Positions 21,385 to 45,137 of a stretch of DNA of 64,000 nucleotides are shown in pieces. Location of the stretch: assembly GCF_022761035.1 (NCBI RefSeq), contig NZ_JAKWJP010000004.1, forward strand, positions 186,001-250,000. Direction: 5' to 3'. Each line of letters opens with the position of its first letter. The stretch's first letter is position 1. Made by a program: the position numbers and the translations under genes. The notes below the pieces were generated by a model. That model did no database searches, was not told where the DNA came from, and saw only the letters and a list, made by a program, of their open reading frames with translations. This DNA is from Microbacterium sp. SS28. GTDB lineage: Bacteria > Actinomycetota > Actinomycetes > Actinomycetales > Microbacteriaceae.

Positions 21385-22695
21385 GTGACCCCCGATGACA
21401 CACACGCCCGGCGTGCCGTCGAGGCCGTGTGGCGTGCGGAGTCCGCCCGCATCGTCGCGGCGCTGACCCGCCGCACGGGCGACTTCGCGTGGGGCGAGGA
21501 CCTCGCTCAGGAGGCGCTGCTCGAAGCGCTCTCAGCCTGGCCGGCCTCCGGCATCCCCGACAATCCGGGCGCCTGGCTCCTGTCCGTCGCGAAACGGCGG
21601 GCGATCGACGGGTGGCGACGGCGCGAGCGGCTCGAGCAGCGGATCGGGATGCTGGGACACGACGCCCTCCTGGCGGAGCACGACGACGCCGTCTCCGTGG
21701 CCGGCGACCCGGACCGGATCGACGACGACGTCCTGCGGCTCGTCTTCGTGGCCTGCCACCCCGTGCTCCCGCCCGCCGCACGCCTCGCCCTCACGCTGCG
21801 GACGGTCGCGGGCCTCACGACGGAGCAGATCGCACGCGTGATGCTGCTGACCGTACCGGCGGTGCAGCAGCGGATCGTCCGCGCCAAGCGCGCGCTCGCC
21901 GATGCGCACGTGGCGTACGAGATCCCCGACCGTGCCGAGCGCCCGGCCCGCCTCGCGAGCGTCCTGCAGGTCGTGTACCTGCTCTTCACCGAGGGCTACG
22001 CTCCGACCGACGGCACGCACCCCGTGCGCATCGACGTCGCGCGCGAAGCAGTGCGGCTCGCGCGGCAGCTCACCGCTCTCGTGCCGAACGAGCCCGAGGT
22101 CTACGCGCTCACGGCGCTCATGGAGTTCCAGTCCTCGCGGTTCACGGCGCGGACGGATGCCGAGGGCCTGCCCCTCACGCTCGCCGAGCAGGACCGCTCA
22201 CGATGGGACCGCTCCGCGATCGCCCGTGGGCGCGCGGCCCTCGCGACTGCCATGGACTTCGAGCGCGGGCTCGGGTACTACGGCCTGCAGGCGGCGGTCG
22301 GCGAGTGCCACGCGATCGCCCCCACCGCCGACGCCACAGACTGGCCACGGATCGTCGCGCTCTACGACGGTCTGCTCGAACTCGCGCCGTCGCCCGTCGT
22401 TCGACTCAATCGCGCCGTCGCGGTGTCGATGGTCGACGGCCCGGCGGTCGCGCTCGTCCAAGTGGACGCGCTCGAGCCCGAGCTCGCCGGCTTCCGGCCG
22501 TTCCACGGAGTGCGGGCTGAGCTGCTCGAGCGGACGGGGCGGACGGATGCCGCGGCTGCCGCGTTCCTCGCAGCCGCTGCCCTTCCCGGCAACGCGGCCG
22601 AGACCGAAGTCCTGCGGCGGCGAGCCGCGGCACTTACCTCCGGCGAGCTCTCCCCGTCGCGCTCGGCGCCCGAGGCGGACGCGGGATCCGCCTAG
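21385..22695 (+). CDS. ECF42-type sigma factor with DUF6596/TPR-like C-terminal domain
   Basis: 436 residues from the GTG at 21385 (GGGGAGG upstream). Residues ~1-95 carry the sigma region 2 (DFAWGEDLAQEALLEAL), ~110-180 the region 4 helix-turn-helix (LTTEQIARVMLLTVPAVQQR). The remaining ~250 residues are an alpha-helical C-terminal domain with YLLFTEGY and a conserved LNRAVAV segment, the DUF6596/TPR extension that defines this group. No anti-sigma gene is nearby, as usual for ECF42, where the C-terminal domain is thought to control activity. Its stop overlaps the parB stop tail to tail (CTAG). Confidence 0.85.
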   Translation: MTPDDTHARRAVEAVWRAESARIVAALTRRTGDFAWGEDLAQEALLEALSAWPASGIPDNPGAWLLSVAKRRAIDGWRRRERLEQRIGMLGHDALLAEHDDAVSVAGDPDRIDDDVLRLVFVACHPVLPPAARLALTLRTVAGLTTEQIARVMLLTVPAVQQRIVRAKRALADAHVAYEIPDRAERPARLASVLQVVYLLFTEGYAPTDGTHPVRIDVAREAVRLARQLTALVPNEPEVYALTALMEFQSSRFTARTDAEGLPLTLAEQDRSRWDRSAIARGRAALATAMDFERGLGYYGLQAAVGECHAIAPTADATDWPRIVALYDGLLELAPSPVVRLNRAVAVSMVDGPAVALVQVDALEPELAGFRPFHGVRAELLERTGRTDAAAAAFLAAAALPGNAAETEVLRRRAAALTSGELSPSRSAPEADAGSA

Positions 22696-23693
22696 CGGGT
22701 GCCGTACTCGGTCTCGCCGAGCTCTTCGAGGATCCGGTTGAGATCCTGGATACTGGCGAAATCGATGTTGATCTGGCCTTTTCTCGCAGTCAGGCCGATC
22801 CGCACGCGCGTGTTCAGACGGTCACCCAGGCGCTCGGCTACCTCGTCGAGATGTGCACGGCGCGCACCGGGCTGCGGCTTCGGGGGACGCACGGAGCCGG
22901 CATCCGGTGCCTTCGCTGCCGCTTCTGCGGCACGCACCGAAAGGTCCTCGTTGACGATCTTGTCGGAGAGTCGCTGCATCGCGTCGGCGTCATCGAGCGA
23001 CAGGATCGCCCGTGCGTGACCGGCCGACAGCACGCCCGCTGCGACGCGCTGCTGCACAGGCACGGGGAGCTTGAGCAGTCGGATCGTGTTGCTGATCTGG
23101 GGGCGAGAACGTCCGATGCGCGTCGCAAGGGCTTCCTGCGTGATGCCGAAGTCCTCGAGGAGCTGCTGGTAGGCCGACGCCTCTTCGAGCGGGTTGAGCT
23201 CGCTGCGGTGGAGGTTCTCGAGCAGCGCGTCGCGTAGCAGGTGCTCGTCGGCGGTGTCGCGGATGACGGCGGGGATGGAGTCGAGACCCGCCTCGCGTGC
23301 GGCGCGCGTGCGGCGCTCGCCCATGATGAGCTCGTAGGTGCCCTCGCCCGTGTCACGCACGACGACGGGCTGGAGCACGCCGAACTCCCGCACACTGTGG
23401 ACGAGCTCTGCGAGATCGTCGGCGTCGAAGTGGGTGCGCGGCTGGCGCGGGTTGGGCACGATCGAGTGCGGGTCGATGTGGACGAGGCGTGCGCCCGGCA
23501 CCGCGACGAGCTCGGGGTCACGCGCGAGCTCTTCCCGGCGCTCTTCACCGTCGGAATCCGGCTCGAGCACGGCCGTCGCGGTCGCCGGAGCGGCGCCGCG
23601 GGGGAAGAGCACGTCTACGGGGCGGGTGTCGGTGGGCTCGCTCGTCGGGATGAGCGCGCCGATCCCTCGGCCCAGTCCGGTTCGCTTGGCCAT
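22692..23693 (-). CDS. parB: Chromosome partitioning protein ParB
   Basis: 333 residues. An N-terminal KRTGLGRGIGALIP segment (the usual ParA-interacting end) precedes the CTPase/ParB domain with NPRQPR and GERRTRAAREAG (about residues 95-165), then a helix-turn-helix (ITQEALATRIGRSRPQISN) that reads parS, and a C-terminal dimerisation region. It binds parS, loads as a CTP-dependent clamp and spreads. Its ATG overlaps the parA stop by one base (TGATG), and AGAGGAG inside parA serves as ribosome site. At least nine sites with an intact parS core lie within the next 3.5 kb. Confidence 0.95.
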   Translation of the reverse strand: MAKRTGLGRGIGALIPTSEPTDTRPVDVLFPRGAAPATATAVLEPDSDGEERREELARDPELVAVPGARLVHIDPHSIVPNPRQPRTHFDADDLAELVHSVREFGVLQPVVVRDTGEGTYELIMGERRTRAAREAGLDSIPAVIRDTADEHLLRDALLENLHRSELNPLEEASAYQQLLEDFGITQEALATRIGRSRPQISNTIRLLKLPVPVQQRVAAGVLSAGHARAILSLDDADAMQRLSDKIVNEDLSVRAAEAAAKAPDAGSVRPPKPQPGARRAHLDEVAERLGDRLNTRVRIGLTARKGQINIDFASIQDLNRILEELGETEYGTR

Positions 23694-24628
23694 CAGGAGG
23701 ACTCCTCTGTGTTCGGAACGGCGCGGTCGCGGTGAATGAGCTCCACGGCCGCTTCGCGGTAGGCGACCGCGCCGGCCGACTGCCCATCGTAGGCGATGAC
23801 GGTCTGGCCGAAGCTCGGCGCTTCTGAGACACGGACGGATCGCGGGATCACGGTCTCGAGCACCTCCTTCGCGAAGTGGGTGCGCACCTCTTCGGCGACC
23901 TGCTGCGCGAGACGCGTCCGCGCGTCGTACATCGTCAGGAGGATCGTCGAGAGGAAGAGCCGCGGATTGAGGTGCTTCTGGATCATGCGCACCGTTCCGA
24001 GCAGCTGGCTGAGCCCCTCGAGCGCGTAATACTCGCACTGGATAGGGATGAGCAGCTCCTGCGCCGCGGCGAAGGCGTTGATCGTGAGCAGGCCGAGCGA
24101 CGGCGGGCAGTCGATGAGCACGAAGTCGAGACGCTCGTCGAGACCACCGAGGTAGTCGTCGAGCGCCGTCCGCAGCCGGTGCTCGCGCGCAACCTGCGAA
24201 ACGAGCTCGATTTCGGCGCCGGCCAGGTGGATCGTGCTCGGCGCACAGAGCAGATTCGGCGACTCCGGGCTCGTCTGGATGATGTCGGCCAGCGGGAACT
24301 CGTCGATCAACACGTCGTAGACCGACGGAATATCGGCGGTATGCGGCACCCCGAGCGCTGTGGAGGCGTTCCCCTGCGGGTCGAGATCGATGACGAGCAC
24401 GCGCGCACCCACCGAGGCGAGGGCTGCGGCGATATTGACCGTGGTCGTCGTCTTTCCGACGCCACCCTTCTGGTTCGAGACAGTCAGGACGCGGGTTCGG
24501 CCCGAGAGGGCGATCTGCGTGTCGTCGAGAGCACGGCGACGGGCTGTGAGATCCGCCAGTTCACGTGCGAGAGGGGTGTCGTCGAACGAGAAGGATGTCG
24601 CGGCCTCCGCGTTCTCGGGTTGTTTCAC
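23693..24628 (-). CDS. parA: Chromosome partitioning ATPase ParA
   Basis: 311 residues from GTG 24628. The deviant Walker A motif KGGVGKTTTTVN is near residue 50, Walker B is DFVLIDCPPSLG, and the A' motif VIDLDPQGNAS is intact. It drives segregation of ParB-parS complexes. I preferred GTG at 24628 because AGGTGGAG lies eight bases upstream; another GTG at 24637 overlaps that site. Longer in-frame extensions upstream only read through REP repeats. The chosen start codon is inside a perfect parS site. Confidence 0.93.
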   Translation of the reverse strand: MKQPENAEAATSFSFDDTPLARELADLTARRRALDDTQIALSGRTRVLTVSNQKGGVGKTTTTVNIAAALASVGARVLVIDLDPQGNASTALGVPHTADIPSVYDVLIDEFPLADIIQTSPESPNLLCAPSTIHLAGAEIELVSQVAREHRLRTALDDYLGGLDERLDFVLIDCPPSLGLLTINAFAAAQELLIPIQCEYYALEGLSQLLGTVRMIQKHLNPRLFLSTILLTMYDARTRLAQQVAEEVRTHFAKEVLETVIPRSVRVSEAPSFGQTVIAYDGQSAGAVAYREAAVELIHRDRAVPNTEESS

Positions 24629-24636
24629 GTGAAACA
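24621..24636. promoter_or_regulatory. parS site 1 (perfect), over the parA start codon
   Basis: TGTTTCACGTGAAACA, an exact match to the bacterial parS consensus. It contains the likely GTG start of parA and abuts its ribosome binding site, so ParB binding here should repress parAB. Confidence 0.92.
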
Positions 24637-24637
24637 C

Positions 24638-25395
24638 TCCACCTTTCGGGTGCCGTCCAGAGCTCTCTTCCACTCTAGCCGCGCCCACCCCCACGACCCC
24701 CTTCGACTCCCCCTCCGCGCCTTTCGCCCCGCCCACCGGTGGCCGACCGCCCTCCCAGCGCCGCATCCGCGCACATTCGCAGGCCGAGTAGGCGCGCCAG
24801 CCCCGTATCGAACGCCTCGGCCTCGCCGCCCGGTGGTTGAGTAGGCGCGCCAGCGCCGTATCGATCACCTCGGCTCGCCGCCCGGTGGTTGAGTAGGCGC
24901 GCCAGCGCCGTATCGATCACCTCGGCTCGCCCCCCGGTGGTTGAGTAGGCGCGCCAGCGCCGTATCGAAACCAGCGCGCAGGTACTTCCCCGTACCCTCC
25001 GCCCCCGCAACCCCGGTGGTTGAGTAGGCGCGCCAGCGCCGTATCGAAACCAGCGCGCAGGTACTTCCCCGTACCCTCCGCCCCCGCAACCCCGGTGGTT
25101 GAGTAGGCGCGCCAGCGCCGTATCGAAACCAGCGCGCAGGTCCTTCCCTGTACCCTCCGCCCCCGCAACCCCGGTGGTTGAGTAGGCGCGCCAGCGCCGT
25201 ATCGAAACCAGCGCGCAGGTCCTTCCCTGTACCCTCCGCCCCCGCAAACCCCGGTGGTTGAGTAGGCGCGCCAGCGCCGTATCGAAACTAGCGCACCGTG
25301 AAGAAGGTCTCACGGCGTGCGCACGCTTCGACCGACGCTGCTCTATCGCCTGCTTGCTCGACTATCAGGCGCCCACCCACGACAGTGGCCTCCGC
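24638..25395. other. Gene-free spacer between parA and the GIY-YIG gene
   Basis: 758 bases without a credible gene. About 24782-25289 is a tandem array of REP-like repeats, described separately. The open frames here on the minus strand only repeat the translation of that element. 24645-24781 is a C-rich stretch, and 25290-25395 is unique sequence in which I see nothing. Confidence 0.7.
24782..25289 (+). repeat. Tandem REP array: 52-base and 79-base units
   Basis: The ~37-base element GGTGGTTGAGTAGG…CGTATCGAAACC occurs at 24832, 24884 and 24936 (52-base spacing), then at 25015, 25094, 25173 and 25253 (79-80-base spacing). A degraded first copy is at 24782. The ends GGTTGAGTA and TATCGAAACC are partly complementary, and the 52- and 79-base units include their spacers, so whole units were duplicated. 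No spacer diversity of CRISPR type is present. Confidence 0.9.
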
Positions 25396-25725
25396 TCACG
25401 GTTCATCGATCCCCGATGTTTCACGTGAAACACTCCCCCTCCTTCGTACCCACACCTTCTTACTCAGCGGCGCGAGCTTCTCCGGTGTCTCCTTGACCAG
25501 CGCCAGCCGCTTGGATCGGCTCCACCCCTGCACCTGCTTCTCGCGGCGGAACGCATCCTCCACACGTTCGAAGTCCTCGCAGTACAGCAGCTTCACCGGT
25601 AACCGGCACCGCGTATACGCAGATCCCATTCCTGCGTTGTGTTCCCAGAGCCGCTTCTCCAAGTCTCGGGTGCTCCCCACGTAGAGGCTGCGGTCACTGC
25701 ATTCGAGGATGTACATGTGTGGCAT
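25396..25725 (-). CDS. GIY-YIG nuclease family protein embedded in the parS array
   Basis: 109 residues. The GIY-YIG equivalents are [16 protein letters not shown] at the N-terminus, followed by the conserved Arg/Glu helix ([10 protein letters not shown]) and [13 protein letters not shown], as in small YhbQ/URI-type proteins of about 85-110 residues. Its role is unknown; relatives are structure-specific nucleases. The last ~11 codons ([12 protein letters not shown]) are read through parS site 2, so the C-terminus is partly repeat-encoded. ATG at 25725 or 25716 are both possible starts. It is the only gene between parA and rsmG. Confidence 0.75.
25417..25432. promoter_or_regulatory. parS site 2 (perfect), inside the 3' end of the GIY-YIG gene
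   Basis: TGTTTCACGTGAAACA, exact consensus, located within the coding sequence of the GIY-YIG gene near its stop. Confidence 0.9.
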
Positions 25726-25829: not shown

Positions 25830-25845
25830 TGTTTCACGTGAAACA
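25830..25845. promoter_or_regulatory. parS site 3 (perfect)
   Basis: TGTTTCACGTGAAACA, exact consensus, followed 15 bases later by an inverted REP element (25861-25900). Confidence 0.9.
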
Positions 25846-25937
25846 CTCACCCGTGGCGCTGATCTCGATACGCGGGCTTCGCTCGCTACTCGATCACCAG
25901 TAAGTCACCGCCGTATAGAGACCATCCACAACGACGA

Positions 25938-25952
25938 TGTTTCACGTGAACA
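25938..25952. promoter_or_regulatory. parS-like site 4 (one base deleted)
   Basis: TGTTTCACGTGAACA lacks one A of the right arm, so the dyad is shifted. Probably weak or inactive. Confidence 0.5.
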
Positions 25953-26044
25953 CTCGCGCATGGCACTGATCTCGATATCCGGGCTTCGCTCGCTACTCGA
26001 TCACCGGTAAGGCAGCGCCATGTCGAACCCATCGGCAACCGCCA

Positions 26045-26060
26045 TGTTTCACGTGAAACG
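26045..26060. promoter_or_regulatory. parS site 5 (intact 14-base core)
   Basis: TGTTTCACGTGAAACG; the GTTTCACGTGAAAC core is perfect and only the outermost base differs from consensus. Confidence 0.88.
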
Positions 26061-26193
26061 CTCACGCGTGGCGCTGATCTCGATACGCGGGCTTCGCTCG
26101 CTACTCGATCACCGGTAGGGGTAAGGGTGTTGAGCGACCCCGGTGGTTGAGTAGGCGCGCCAGCGCCGTATCGAAACCATCGACGACCACCAA

Positions 26194-26209
26194 CGTTTCA
26201 CGTGAAACG
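26194..26209. promoter_or_regulatory. parS site 6 (intact core)
   Basis: CGTTTCACGTGAAACG, a perfect 16-base palindrome with both outer bases changed from the usual T/A. It lies between a forward REP (26142-26178) and an inverted REP (26225-26264). Confidence 0.85.
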
Positions 26210-26346
26210 CTCTCGCATGGCGCTGATCTCGATACGCGGGCTTCGCTCGCTACTCGATCACCGGTACGGGAATGGTGTCGGGCGACCCCACCCCCGGTGG
26301 TTGAGTAGGCGCGCCAGCGCCGTATCGAAACCACCGACAACCACCA

Positions 26347-26362
26347 CGTTTCACGTGAAACG
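26347..26362. promoter_or_regulatory. parS site 7 (intact core)
   Basis: CGTTTCACGTGAAACG in the first copy of the 152-base unit. Confidence 0.85.
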
Positions 26363-26498
26363 CTCGCGCATGGCACTGATCGCGATACCCGGGCTTCGCT
26401 CGCTACTCGATCACCGGTACGGGAATGGTGTCGAGTGACCCACCCTCGGTGGTTGAGTAGGCGCGCCAGCGCCGTATCGAAACCACCGACAACCACCA

Positions 26499-26514
26499 CG
26501 TTTCACGTGAAACG
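26499..26514. promoter_or_regulatory. parS site 8 (intact core)
   Basis: CGTTTCACGTGAAACG in the second copy of the 152-base unit, exactly 152 bases after site 7. Confidence 0.85.
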
Positions 26515-26650
26515 CTCGCGCATGGCACTGATCGCGATACCCGGGCTTCGCTCGCTACTCGATCACCGGTACGGGAATGGTGTCGAGTGACCCACCCTCG
26601 GTGGTTGAGTAGGCGCGCCAGCGCCGTATCGAAACCACCGACAACCACCA

Positions 26651-26666
26651 CGTTTCACGTGACACT
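26651..26666. promoter_or_regulatory. parS-like site 9 (right arm changed)
   Basis: CGTTTCACGTGACACT keeps the left half-site; one core base of the right arm is changed. It marks the point where the third 152-base copy diverges. Confidence 0.5.
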
Positions 26667-26756
26667 CAAGTCTGGGTTTGATCTCGATACGCGGGCTTCG
26701 CTCGCTACTCGATCACCGGTAAGGCAGCGCCGTGTCGAACCCATCGGCAACCGCCA

Positions 26757-26772
26757 TGCTTCACGTGAATCG
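26757..26772. promoter_or_regulatory. parS-like site 10 (central core only)
   Basis: TGCTTCACGTGAATCG keeps TTCACGTGAA but has symmetric-looking losses in both outer arms. Confidence 0.45.
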
Positions 26773-26907
26773 CTCACGCGTTGCGCTGATCTCGATACGC
26801 GGGCTTCGCTCGCTACTCGATCACCGGTAGGGAATGGTGCCGAGCGACCCCACTCCGGTGGTTGAGTAGGCGCGCCAGCACCGTATCGAAACCATCGACA
26901 ACCACCA

Positions 26908-26923
26908 CGTTTCACGTGAAACG
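26908..26923. promoter_or_regulatory. parS site 11 (intact core)
   Basis: CGTTTCACGTGAAACG between a forward REP (26857-26893) and an inverted REP (26939-26978). Confidence 0.85.
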
Positions 26924-27054
26924 CGCACGCGTCGCACTGATCTCGATACTCGGGCTTCGCTCGCTACTCGATCACCGGTAGGGGAATGGTGTTGAGCGAC
27001 CCCGGTGGTTGAGTAGACGCGCCAGCGCCGTATCGAAACCTCGACAACCACCAA

Positions 27055-27070
27055 CGTTTCACGTGAAACG
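27055..27070. promoter_or_regulatory. parS site 12 (intact core)
   Basis: CGTTTCACGTGAAACG between a forward REP (27004-27040) and an inverted REP (27086-27125). Confidence 0.85.
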
Positions 27071-27350
27071 CTCACGCGTGGCGCTGATCTCGATACGCGG
27101 GCTTCGCTCGTTACTCGATCACCGGTAAGGGGGCTTCAACTACGCCACGCGGTGGTTGAGTAGGCGCGCCAGCGCCTTATCGAAACCATCGCACCCGGAA
27201 CAGAGGCAAAGCTGCGGGGGATCGCGACGCGCACGCTTGACGCAACGCGGGATTACAGATCCGCGGCAGCGGCCCACCACGCTCGGGCTCTGGCGCCCGT
27301 TCACTGCGAGTCAGCTCTACGCATCCGACTACATCCTTCACATTCCGCCA

Positions 27351-27366
27351 TGTATCACGTGAGACG
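27351..27366. promoter_or_regulatory. parS-like site 13 (degenerate)
   Basis: TGTATCACGTGAGACG has one change in each arm, which together are symmetric in position. It is followed by a degraded inverted REP. Confidence 0.4.
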
Positions 27367-27568
27367 CTGGCGTCCTGGATTGGTCTCGTTACGCGGGCTT
27401 CGCTCGCTACTCGATCACTAACGCCGGGAGCAACACGAGGCAGCCCATGCGCCCACCCACCGAGGCTCCACGCTCGCTGCTCAATCACCGGACGCGCGGT
27501 CTCGAGTGGGTCACTGCCGGTGGTTGAGTAGGCGCGCCAGCGCTGTATCGAACCATCGACAACCACCA

Positions 27569-27584
27569 CGTTTCACGTAAAACC
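27569..27584. promoter_or_regulatory. parS-like site 14 (degenerate)
   Basis: CGTTTCACGTAAAACC has a changed base in the central CACGTG and another at the outer end. It is flanked by a forward REP (27519-27554) and a shortened inverted REP (27600-27637). Confidence 0.45.
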
Positions 27585-27680
27585 CTCACGCGTGACGCTG
27601 ATCTCGATACGGGCTTCGCTCGCTACTCGATCACCAGCAGAGGCCGACCACTCGAGCATCCGCAACCCGCAGGACTGGGG

Positions 27681-27906: not shown

Positions 27907-28539
27907 TCAGCGCCGAATCGTGCCCCGAACAACGCGTGTCGGCTCGGCGAGAAGCGCCTCACCGACGACCTCGACGCGGGCATCCGCGATGCCGTACTTG
28001 CGCAGCGGCTTGACCGCGGCGTCGATCTCGGCGCCGGCGTTGGCGCCCTTCAGAAGGATGAGCTCGCCGCCATCCTTCACGAGCGGTGCGGTCAGCGGAA
28101 CGAGCGTGCGCAGGGCGCTCACGGCCCGGGCTGTGACCGCGTCCAGAATCGGTCCGCGCTTCCAGTCCTCGGCGCGGGCGCGCAGCACCTCGACATTGTC
28201 GAGCCCGAGAGAGTCCACCTGTTCGTTGAGCCAGGCGACCCGGCGCTCCATCGGCTCGATCAGGATCCACTCGACATCCGGGCGTGCGATCGCGAGCACG
28301 AGGCCCGGCAGGCCCGCACCTGAACCGATGTCCGCGACCCGACCCGAGAACAGGGGTGCGACGACAGCGCTGTTCAGGACGTGACGCGACCACAGTCGTG
28401 GCGGCTCAAGCGGCCCGATCAGGCCGCGCTCCTCGCCTTCGTCGGCCAGCGCCTGCGTGAAGCGGCGGGCAACGTCGATCCGGTCGCCGAAGATCTCAGC
28501 GGCAACCGCCGGCTCGACCTCTACCTGTGTCTCGCTCAT
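27907..28539 (-). CDS. rsmG: 16S rRNA (guanine-N7)-methyltransferase RsmG (GidB)
   Basis: 210 residues. RLWSRHVLNSAVV and the SAM motif VADIGSGAGLPGLVLAIARP are the family signatures. It methylates G527 (E. coli numbering) in the 530 loop of 16S rRNA; loss gives low-level streptomycin resistance in other bacteria. The ATG at 28539 follows the jag stop by 19 bases, which contain a parS-like site. In most bacteria parA follows directly; here 3.3 kb intervene. Confidence 0.93.
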   Translation of the reverse strand: MSETQVEVEPAVAAEIFGDRIDVARRFTQALADEGEERGLIGPLEPPRLWSRHVLNSAVVAPLFSGRVADIGSGAGLPGLVLAIARPDVEWILIEPMERRVAWLNEQVDSLGLDNVEVLRARAEDWKRGPILDAVTARAVSALRTLVPLTAPLVKDGGELILLKGANAGAEIDAAVKPLRKYGIADARVEVVGEALLAEPTRVVRGTIRR

Positions 28540-28542
28540 CGC

Positions 28543-28558
28543 CGTTTCACGTGGAACG
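28543..28558. promoter_or_regulatory. parS-like site 15, between jag and rsmG
   Basis: CGTTTCACGTGGAACG has one changed core base. It occupies nearly the whole jag-rsmG spacer just before the rsmG start and has no REP partners. Confidence 0.55.
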
Positions 28559-29071
28559 TCAGTGGCGACGGATGACGGTGTGGCGCTCGGCGCCTTCGCC
28601 GTACGACTCCGAGATGAAGCCACGCTCGGCGACGAGGTCGTGCACGAGCTTGCGCTCGTAGCTCGACATCGAGGGGAGCGAAGCCTGCGTCGCACCATCG
28701 TCGAGGCGCGCGATCGCACGATCGACGAGCACCGAAAGCTGCTTCTCACGCGTGTCGCGCGATCCGCCGATGTCGAGGATCAGGCGCGAGAATCGACCGG
28801 TACGGCTCTGCACCGCGATGCGCGTCAGCTCCTGCAGCGCCTGCACGGTGTCGGGAGCCGAGAGAGGCGAGAGTGCGCCCTCGTCTTCGGCCTCGATGGA
28901 GACATAGGCGCGCCCCGCCCGGACGTCGAGGGCCAGGTCGCCGTCGATGTCGGCGATGTCGAGCAGCTCCTCGATGTAGTCGGCGGCGATGTCGCCTTCC
29001 TGCTCGAGCTGCTCCACTGTGGGAGCCACGCGCTCGGCGGTGGCGGTGTCGACGGATTCGGTCGTGGTCAT
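28559..29071 (-). CDS. jag: Jag/KhpB-like RNA-binding protein (KH + R3H)
   Basis: 170 residues from the ATG at 29071, chosen because GAGGA lies just upstream; in-frame GTG at 29116 and ATG at 29086 have no ribosome site. The C-terminal R3H motif (SMSSYERKLVHDLVAERG…SYGEGAERHTVIRR) and the preceding KH-like beta-alpha region are clear. The N-terminal Jag_N domain of firmicute proteins is replaced by a short acidic segment. It likely binds RNA and lies in the conserved yidC-jag-rsmG order. Confidence 0.88.
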   Translation of the reverse strand: MTTTESVDTATAERVAPTVEQLEQEGDIAADYIEELLDIADIDGDLALDVRAGRAYVSIEAEDEGALSPLSAPDTVQALQELTRIAVQSRTGRFSRLILDIGGSRDTREKQLSVLVDRAIARLDDGATQASLPSMSSYERKLVHDLVAERGFISESYGEGAERHTVIRRH

Positions 29072-45100: not shown

Positions 45101-45135
45101 GGTCGTCGAGTAGGCGCGCAGCGCCGTATCGAGAC
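45101..45135 (+). repeat. Isolated REP element
   Basis: GGTCGTCGAGTAGG…CGTATCGAGAC has the same ends as the array elements near 24.8-27.9 kb but lies alone; a possible remnant of another copy immediately precedes it (TATCGAAACC). Confidence 0.7.
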
Positions 45136-45137
45136 GG

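Follow-up and report, generated by a model that had tools for sequence, protein, structure and literature searches.

What is a small nuclease gene doing among the centromere sites of a bacterial chromosome? In the present study, this question was raised by a stretch of 64,000 nucleotides from Microbacterium sp. SS28 (contig NZ_JAKWJP010000004.1, positions 186,001 to 250,000; hereafter the window), in which a GIY-YIG gene has parA on one side and rsmG on the other, with 15 parS-like sites and two repeat arrays around it. A preliminary description of the window had placed the gene inside a parS array and had considered that its product could act on cruciforms, help to amplify the array or be a simple passenger. 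Repetitive extragenic palindromic sequences (REPs) are common bacterial repeats, and the sole enzyme tied to them in the papers cited here is the HUH-type RAYT. The comparisons reported below suggest that mobile repeat systems include a kind not recognised before, which would be driven by a GIY-YIG enzyme.

The nuclease gene and its protein

The gene is real, as had been described: its 109-residue reading frame matches PF01541 (GIY-YIG) with 60.9 bits (cut-off 22.6), and this was its only match in Pfam, with none among the NCBIfam models. The family-library search between parA and rsmG covered this frame alone, and the other frames there, mostly read-through of repeats, were taken as mechanical. 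In all 46 rows of an alignment, residues Y15, G17, R25, H29 and E62 are the same, and Y5 is kept in at least 90%; the two tyrosines, the arginine and the glutamate, which we take to be the catalytic-type residues of the motif, are kept in the window protein. By domain score and residues the protein is a member of the GIY-YIG (PF01541) family, with predicted nuclease activity. Among proteins of solved structure, 1zg2 and 1ywl of UPF0213 are its neighbours in sequence, and the predicted model (mean pLDDT 73.9, about 85 over residues 1-70, low in the tail) resembles their fold and, more weakly, Slx1 structures. An EKQVQGWS-like stretch, RE[KR]Q[VIL]Q[GN]W, is matched by 97 of 109 relatives, and the remaining 12 carry near variants. 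Single stops at positions 94-99 in seven family matches are natural ends, and gene decay is not claimed.

A parS site does lie in the coding end for the C-terminus, as first noted, and it is an exact one (Table 1). Since the match stops near residue 90 in most of 80 relatives, and only two of the 17 relatives inspected (L006 and L045) run into an exact parS site, this overlap looks incidental.

Repeats and parS sites in the window

The array around the gene is made mainly of REP-like hairpins of two types in both orientations, and parS-like sites are interleaved with them on the rsmG side only. The hairpins follow the plan [4-bp outer stem]-GAG-[inner part]-NCGA-[4-bp stem'], in which YCGA is usual and ACGA occurs in one class; the full form of the plus-strand REP in the window is GGTT-GAGTAG-[hairpin]-GTATCGA-AACC. 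The exact pattern TTGAGTAGN{5,30}GTATCGA was found 29 times in the genome, 14 times in the window array and 15 times elsewhere. On the 3' side of the gene, eight A-type REPs stand at tandem spacings of 52-53 and then 79-80 nt with no parS between them (24769-25294), in contrast to the parS-bearing array across the gene, in which successive units of about 150 nt are mostly 147-154 nt apart. Compared with shuffles, folding as single-stranded DNA gave z -3.55 for the GGTT-type REP, -1.56 for the GATC-type and -3.91 to -0.54 for four copies from other loci. In Rfam, neither the window repeats nor those at eight loci matched a family.

Table 1. Features of the window around the GIY-YIG gene
Feature	Position	Strand	Remarks
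parB	22692-24038	-	ORF limits
parA	23693-24868	-	ORF limits, true start probably further inside; AAA_31 and other ParA-type matches
parS-like site	24623-24634		over 5' part of parA ORF
Eight A-type REPs, GGTT-GAGTAG-hairpin-CGTATCGA-AACC and variants	24782-25289	+	3' side of gene; starts 24782, 24835, 24887, 24939, 25018, 25097, 25176, 25256
GIY-YIG nuclease gene	25396-25725	-	109 aa; domain at residues 2-72; last residues are a tail translated across the parS site
Exact parS-like site TTTCACGTGAAA	25419-25430	+	within 3' end of nuclease gene
Twelve more parS-like sites (at most 2 mismatches)	25832-27582	+	interleaved with REPs
Composite array (parS and REPs of both strands)	25861-27632	both	5' side of gene
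REPs of composite array, GATC-GAGTAG..CGTATCGA-GATC and variants	25861, 26076, 26225, 26680, 26788, 26939, 27600	-	further diverged copies
REPs of composite array	26145, 26299, 26451, 26603, 26860, 27007, 27522	+	diverged copies near 27141 and 27823
rsmG	27907-28749	-	ORF limits
One-mismatch parS-like site	28545-28556		inside rsmG ORF limits
Isolated dispersed A-type REP, CGTC-GAGTAG..CGTATCGA-GACG	45104-45136	+

The 15 parS-like sites of the window (at most 2 mismatches) compare with 0.45 expected from shuffling; parS copies lie near parAB, as in ParABS systems, and parS is also found in relatives without the gene. Within the genus, an exact parS was present within 1.5 kb of rsmG at all 29 usable loci, gene present or absent, 21 of them having no gene nearby (L269 of genome G201 was excluded, its contig ending 51 nt past rsmG). 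A-type REPs were found at rsmG in none of these 21 loci and in six of the eight with the gene, which adjoins rsmG in 25 of 62 gene-bearing genus genomes. At least two exact parS sites occur within 2 kb at 13 of the 80 loci treated below and within 1.5 kb at one of 29 family loci. The nuclease gene was rejected as a part of the parS array because parS is found without it in relatives; the nearness of parS stands, and what embeds the gene is an array mainly of REP hairpins. The repeating unit of about 150 nt holds one parS and two REPs, so growth of the array multiplied parS too, and the window case would show how a mobile unit of this kind can become established in a centromere region, where parS multiplies together with the repeats.

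Association of the gene with hairpins across phyla

The best 80 of at least 544 relatives, near-copies included, were searched with the pattern N_k-GAG-X(4-45)-YCGA-rc(N_k) at stem lengths k=4 and k=5. By record titles these loci come from at least ten phyla (Actinomycetota, Chloroflexota, Cyanobacteriota, Thermodesulfobacteriota, Pseudomonadota, Bacteroidota, Ignavibacteriota, Calditrichota, Fibrobacterota, Armatimonadota and Myxococcota), many of them as metagenome bins. At k=4 every one of the 80 had a hairpin within 300 nt of the gene (350 copies), with a density of 7.45/kb there against 0.264/kb more than 1.5 kb away; at k=5 the figures were 63 of 80, 4.64/kb and 0.103/kb, and eleven control cores gave 0-5 of 80. 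Pseudo-genes placed at random in the same loci (k=4) reached a mean of 9.2 and a maximum of 17 of 79, against 79 observed; their spots fell anywhere in the flanks, presumably mostly in coding sequence, a point that the control cores address. The REPs are close to the gene (median 59 nt before and 49 nt after), with the motif on both sides within 400 nt at 60 loci and on one side only at 20, and in the two-sided loci the nearest flanking pair is inverted in 44 cases, while 16 have both REPs in one orientation. Of the 80 relatives, the one closest to the window gene (L004) carries Microbacterium-type REPs and parS in a record named Planococcus sp., which is probably misnamed or contaminated.

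In a second sample of 29 family loci, which are best-scoring matches, the motif was found at 26 with k=4 and 17 with k=5, and eight control cores gave 0-6 of 29 at k=4; the motif is lacking nearby at L088, L102 and L113. Among 26 UvrC-type or other GIY-YIG loci there were six at k=4 and one at k=5, and among ten distant relatives, of which E. coli yhbQ and B. subtilis yazA are two, there were two and none. The two with matches, from Sphingomonas (L182) and Methylobacterium (L180), had been meant as controls; they carry a GWSRAKK stretch, and the stem-4 GAG..YCGA palindromes nearby look like real REPs. From them, the REP-linked family probably extends further into Alphaproteobacteria. The motif was absent nearby at L229 and L248, and the second GIY-YIG gene of G132 (L311, C1:235001-255000) lies in 20 kb that are free of A-type REPs and lacks a convincing motif in its vicinity; the other copy in that genome, unlike this one, does have REPs alongside. 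Overall, the association of the gene with hairpin repeats is well supported, being strong and not absolute.

Covariation and repeat classes

Copies were picked by the core alone within 500 nt of the gene, giving 191 copies from 48 loci for class A, 84 from 26 for class C and 104 from 24 for class D. In these classes the first four outer-stem pairs are Watson-Crick in 91-100% of copies, against a shuffled expectation of 38-91%, the high end of which belongs to columns that barely vary. Each of these positions uses two to four pair types, with G-T at 0-4%, and the class A inner stem is paired in 77-96% against 38-46% after shuffling. The repeat is thus a hairpin whose pairing is constrained, the constraint probably acting on DNA. 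At four loci (L099, L101, L107 and L110) GAGTAG..CGTATCGA is swapped for GAGGAG..CGTCTCGA, consistent with replacement of a T-A pair by G-C within the core.

Mapped on a protein tree of 110 rows, repeat class required 14 changes among the 101 rows that carry a label; counting the unlabelled ones as a further class gave 21, against a shuffled mean of 55.5, and none of 200 shuffles was as low, on a tree that has few columns and many open forks and in which near-copies favour clustering. Most Chloroflexota rows fall in two clades, one of class A (9 rows) and another of class C (7 rows), the latter including a KSB1 and an Armatimonadota row, while L021 lies on its own; a class D clade unites the Cyanobacteria with Geobacter-like rows. 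The second GIY-YIG gene of the Microbacterium genome itself (L002, G000 C14:513794-517009) was rejected as a REP-free locus, REPs appearing once ACGA was allowed: there are six matches, of which at least five are the F-type REP CGTT-GAG-..-ACGA-AACG. This relaxation was chosen after viewing the sequence, with a reach of 350 instead of 300 nt, and the count is descriptive.

Co-occurrence of gene and repeats in genomes

The whole-genome counts detect the A-type repeat only. With the gene called at E <=1e-10, it was present in 48 of 199 family genomes, and at least five A-type repeats were found in 35 of these 48 against 20 of the 151 gene-negative ones (Fisher p 1.5e-14); the other 13 gene-bearing genomes hold fewer than five. 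In 17 of the 23 mixed genera the gene-bearing genomes hold the larger number of repeats, in 4 the smaller, and in 2 the numbers are equal (sign test p 0.007). In the genus the gene occurs in 62 of 149 genomes. Where the gene is present, there are one to three matches per genome. At least three A-type repeats were seen in 17 of the 25 genomes with the gene beside rsmG (both within 3 kb on one contig), in none of 37 with the gene only elsewhere and in one of 87 without it, and the comparison of 17/25 with 1/124 gives p 1.9e-15. The loci with the gene elsewhere have repeat classes of their own, in 11 of 15 by the first rule and in 14 of 15 with ACGA allowed.

The preliminary description had proposed this very comparison among relatives, naming as adverse the gene at this place without repeats or the repeats without the gene. 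The correlation is strong, and exceptions of both kinds occur: 8 of the 25 genus genomes with the gene at rsmG have fewer than three A-type copies, and repeats stand without the gene in 20 family genomes and one genus genome, which carries 26 copies (of the 87 genus genomes without the gene, the other 86 carry two at most). When the 20 family genomes were rechecked with PF01541, 18 matched, the best matches lying in frames of 544-950 codons, which from their length are read as UvrC; the other two, 82% and 88% complete, had no PF01541 match. Our reading of such genomes is that the gene may have been lost and the repeats left behind. The highest number noted, 1,194 A-type REPs by pattern count, belongs to a gene-negative genome (G045, L288-L307), in which neither a single-domain GIY-YIG nor a RAYT match was found; its REPs are either an orphaned population or those of an unseen enzyme. 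RAYT was rejected as the mover of the REPs in 33 genomes, the repeat-rich ones included, with no match to PF01797 (Y1_Tnp); the control rings in 5 of 14.

Possible signs of movement

Two congeners were compared, one with 95 repeats and three gene matches (G180) and one with neither (G058). Over 800 kb, the former has 49 pattern matches in 27 clusters and the latter none. Flanks collinear with G058 were seen for 14 clusters, which occupy 13 distinct spacers, and the spacer is shorter in G058 at 11 (such as 492 vs 8 nt, 632 vs 28 and 255 vs 15) and longer at 2; two further clusters lie inside an alignment block and 11 were not comparable. Six junction pairs were read by eye: no target duplication was seen, and the flanks, about 71-85% identical, are too diverged to place the ends. 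One of the spacers is the parA-rsmG interval, as tblastn with the window proteins confirmed: in G180 (1,528 nt) it holds the gene, REP arrays and two exact parS, and in G058 (856 nt) three exact parS and neither gene nor REPs. Judged from these alignments, the presence and absence of gene and REPs appear insertion-like.

In addition, with a slightly wider pattern, inverted pairs of two REP variants are frequent and recur at set spacing. In 400 kb of G045, 17 such pairs are 57-58 nt apart and 7 are 26-27 nt apart; in 800 kb of G180 the corresponding numbers are 18 at 70-72 nt and 9 at 29-32. In three genomes (G129, G171 and G116), repeats beside the gene have identical copies elsewhere in their 20-kb stretch, at a distance of over 1.5 kb.

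Discussion

We consider that the gene and its cognate hairpins are probably two halves of one mobile system of the REP type, like RAYT/REP with an unrelated enzyme. From the results above we infer that the nuclease binds, cuts and mobilises the hairpins. It would recognise its cognate hairpin through the conserved GAG and NCGA strands inside the variable 4-bp outer stem, and in class A the variable inner stem would also be inside the recognised element. Recognition may take place once the hairpin has been extruded as a cruciform, or has folded in single-stranded DNA during replication, and cutting would follow; the Slx1-like fold of the predicted model would be consistent with a branched-DNA substrate. 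Repair or re-insertion of the cut element could then copy single REPs or inverted pairs to new intergenic sites, and local arrays would expand in the same way. The REP-bordered gene would be the autonomous unit, and the dispersed REPs, usually paired, its non-autonomous copies. In the window, such a unit may have landed in the parA-rsmG interval, the array being amplified together with the neighbouring parS sites. The early idea of a nuclease acting on cruciforms and amplifying its array fits these findings; the partner is the REP and not the centromere. A broader claim, toward which we lean somewhat, is that this would be a second, independent class of REP mobilisation, in which GIY-YIG nucleases, which are not known to be transposases, copy their own hairpins singly or as inverted pairs and enzyme and hairpin type are co-inherited in at least ten phyla.

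The main rival would have the nuclease cut REP cruciforms and repair from other REPs expand the arrays, with no true transposition and with dispersed copies arising from rare illegitimate capture. The tandem arrays at the gene, the Slx1-like fold and the six junction pairs would all suit it. We nevertheless hold it to be unlikely, since the hundreds of dispersed copies in some genomes and the recurring spacing of inverted pairs point to a copied unit.

It is improbable that the REPs are host elements, such as terminators or sites for supercoiling or segregation, whose cruciforms the nuclease resolves to keep them in check, with selection holding the gene beside them. Such a housekeeping role would agree with the one to three matches of gene-bearing genomes and with the many genus genes beside parS, but the gene is patchy in both family and genus, nearly all gene-negative genus genomes have at most two A-type REPs, and REPs are tolerated without the gene.

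Two further readings have very little probability. If the nuclease bound or processed REP hairpins in transcripts, for example in regulating its own mRNA, their closeness to the gene would be expected, but the rarity of G-T pairs in the outer stems, the occurrence of both orientations and dispersed copies, and the lack of an Rfam match for the window and the eight loci argue against RNA. The simple passenger of the preliminary description, a gene carried by REPs that another enzyme moves, would account for REP-rich genomes without the gene and is disfavoured by the recurrence, over at least ten phyla, of one nuclease subfamily beside one hairpin plan, the match of repeat type to protein clade and the lack of RAYT in the 33 genomes.

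If the preferred reading of one mobile system is true, enzyme-less repeats would gain an enzyme, and GIY-YIG would be added to the enzymes credited with moving DNA. On the broader claim, such systems could be the source of a large share of the GAG..TCGA palindromes in genomes of environmental bacteria. The preferred reading would also provide a testable pairing of nuclease and hairpin, with some 90 conserved residues, of which core classes A to F are the natural variants in specificity.

Comparison with known systems

Homing endonuclease genes belong to an intron, an intein or a conserved host gene, and their products cut the empty allele; the gene here is intergenic. The single-domain GIY-YIG proteins UPF0213/YhbQ/YazA (1zg2, 1ywl) share family and fold with the window protein; E. 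coli yhbQ and B. subtilis yazA differ in having no such REP within 300 nt and no EKQVQGWS-like stretch. Slx1 is a eukaryotic protein with a zinc finger and the partner Slx4, and is not known to have associated repeats. Its fold match is the weaker one (Foldseek probability 1.00, E 0.015, TM 0.52 on query), and according to a PDB title its substrate is branched DNA.

Short tagged palindromes, the GTAG- and CGTC-tagged REPs, have been described in several phyla, the CGTC ones apparently without a dedicated transposase, in sections of PMC3733652, the main text of which has no TTGAG, GGAG, Actinobacteria or GIY-YIG terms. Multicopy sequences of palindromic form are known from genome papers on Geobacter (PMC2996986, PMC2700814), and GIY-YIG is absent from their main text. 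In the open-access literature no text was found with both 'GIY-YIG' and 'repetitive extragenic palindromic', none of the matches listed in wider searches ties GIY-YIG to bacterial REPs by title, term counts or abstract, and exact searches for four strings from classes C and D, each 14-15 letters long, had no match in the open-access texts searched. We therefore rate the pairing of GIY-YIG and REP as new within the open-access literature, an earlier description of the repeats or even of the pairing being possible, with a working mode that resembles RAYT/REP.

REPINs/BIMEs, as outlined in parts of PMC3116915, are alike in that two REP variants form inverted pairs whose spacing recurs, and differ in repeat sequence and in the RAYT, for which the genomes tested here gave no match. 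The closest likeness is with the RAYT/TnpA-REP 'REPtron' as presented in excerpts of PMC2817692 and PMC8266576: a small nuclease gene is bordered by short palindromes, which are dispersed, form inverted pairs, are of a type matched to the enzyme and are commoner with the gene. A GT(A/G)G head is reported for RAYT REPs in an excerpt of PMC2817692. The core of the GIY-YIG repeats is GAG..NCGA between the outer stem strands; class A carries the letters GTAG as in one form of that head, by coincidence or convergence, the GGAG of class B does not fit it, and classes C and D do not have GTAG. As in the REPtron, the presence of the gene correlates with the abundance of cognate REPs, with exceptions, and enzyme and REP appear to have coevolved, the classes being clustered on the protein tree. 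The REPtron is, however, defined by its HUH/Y1 tyrosine enzyme (Y1_Tnp, PF01797), and in the system proposed here that place is taken by a GIY-YIG enzyme (PF01541).
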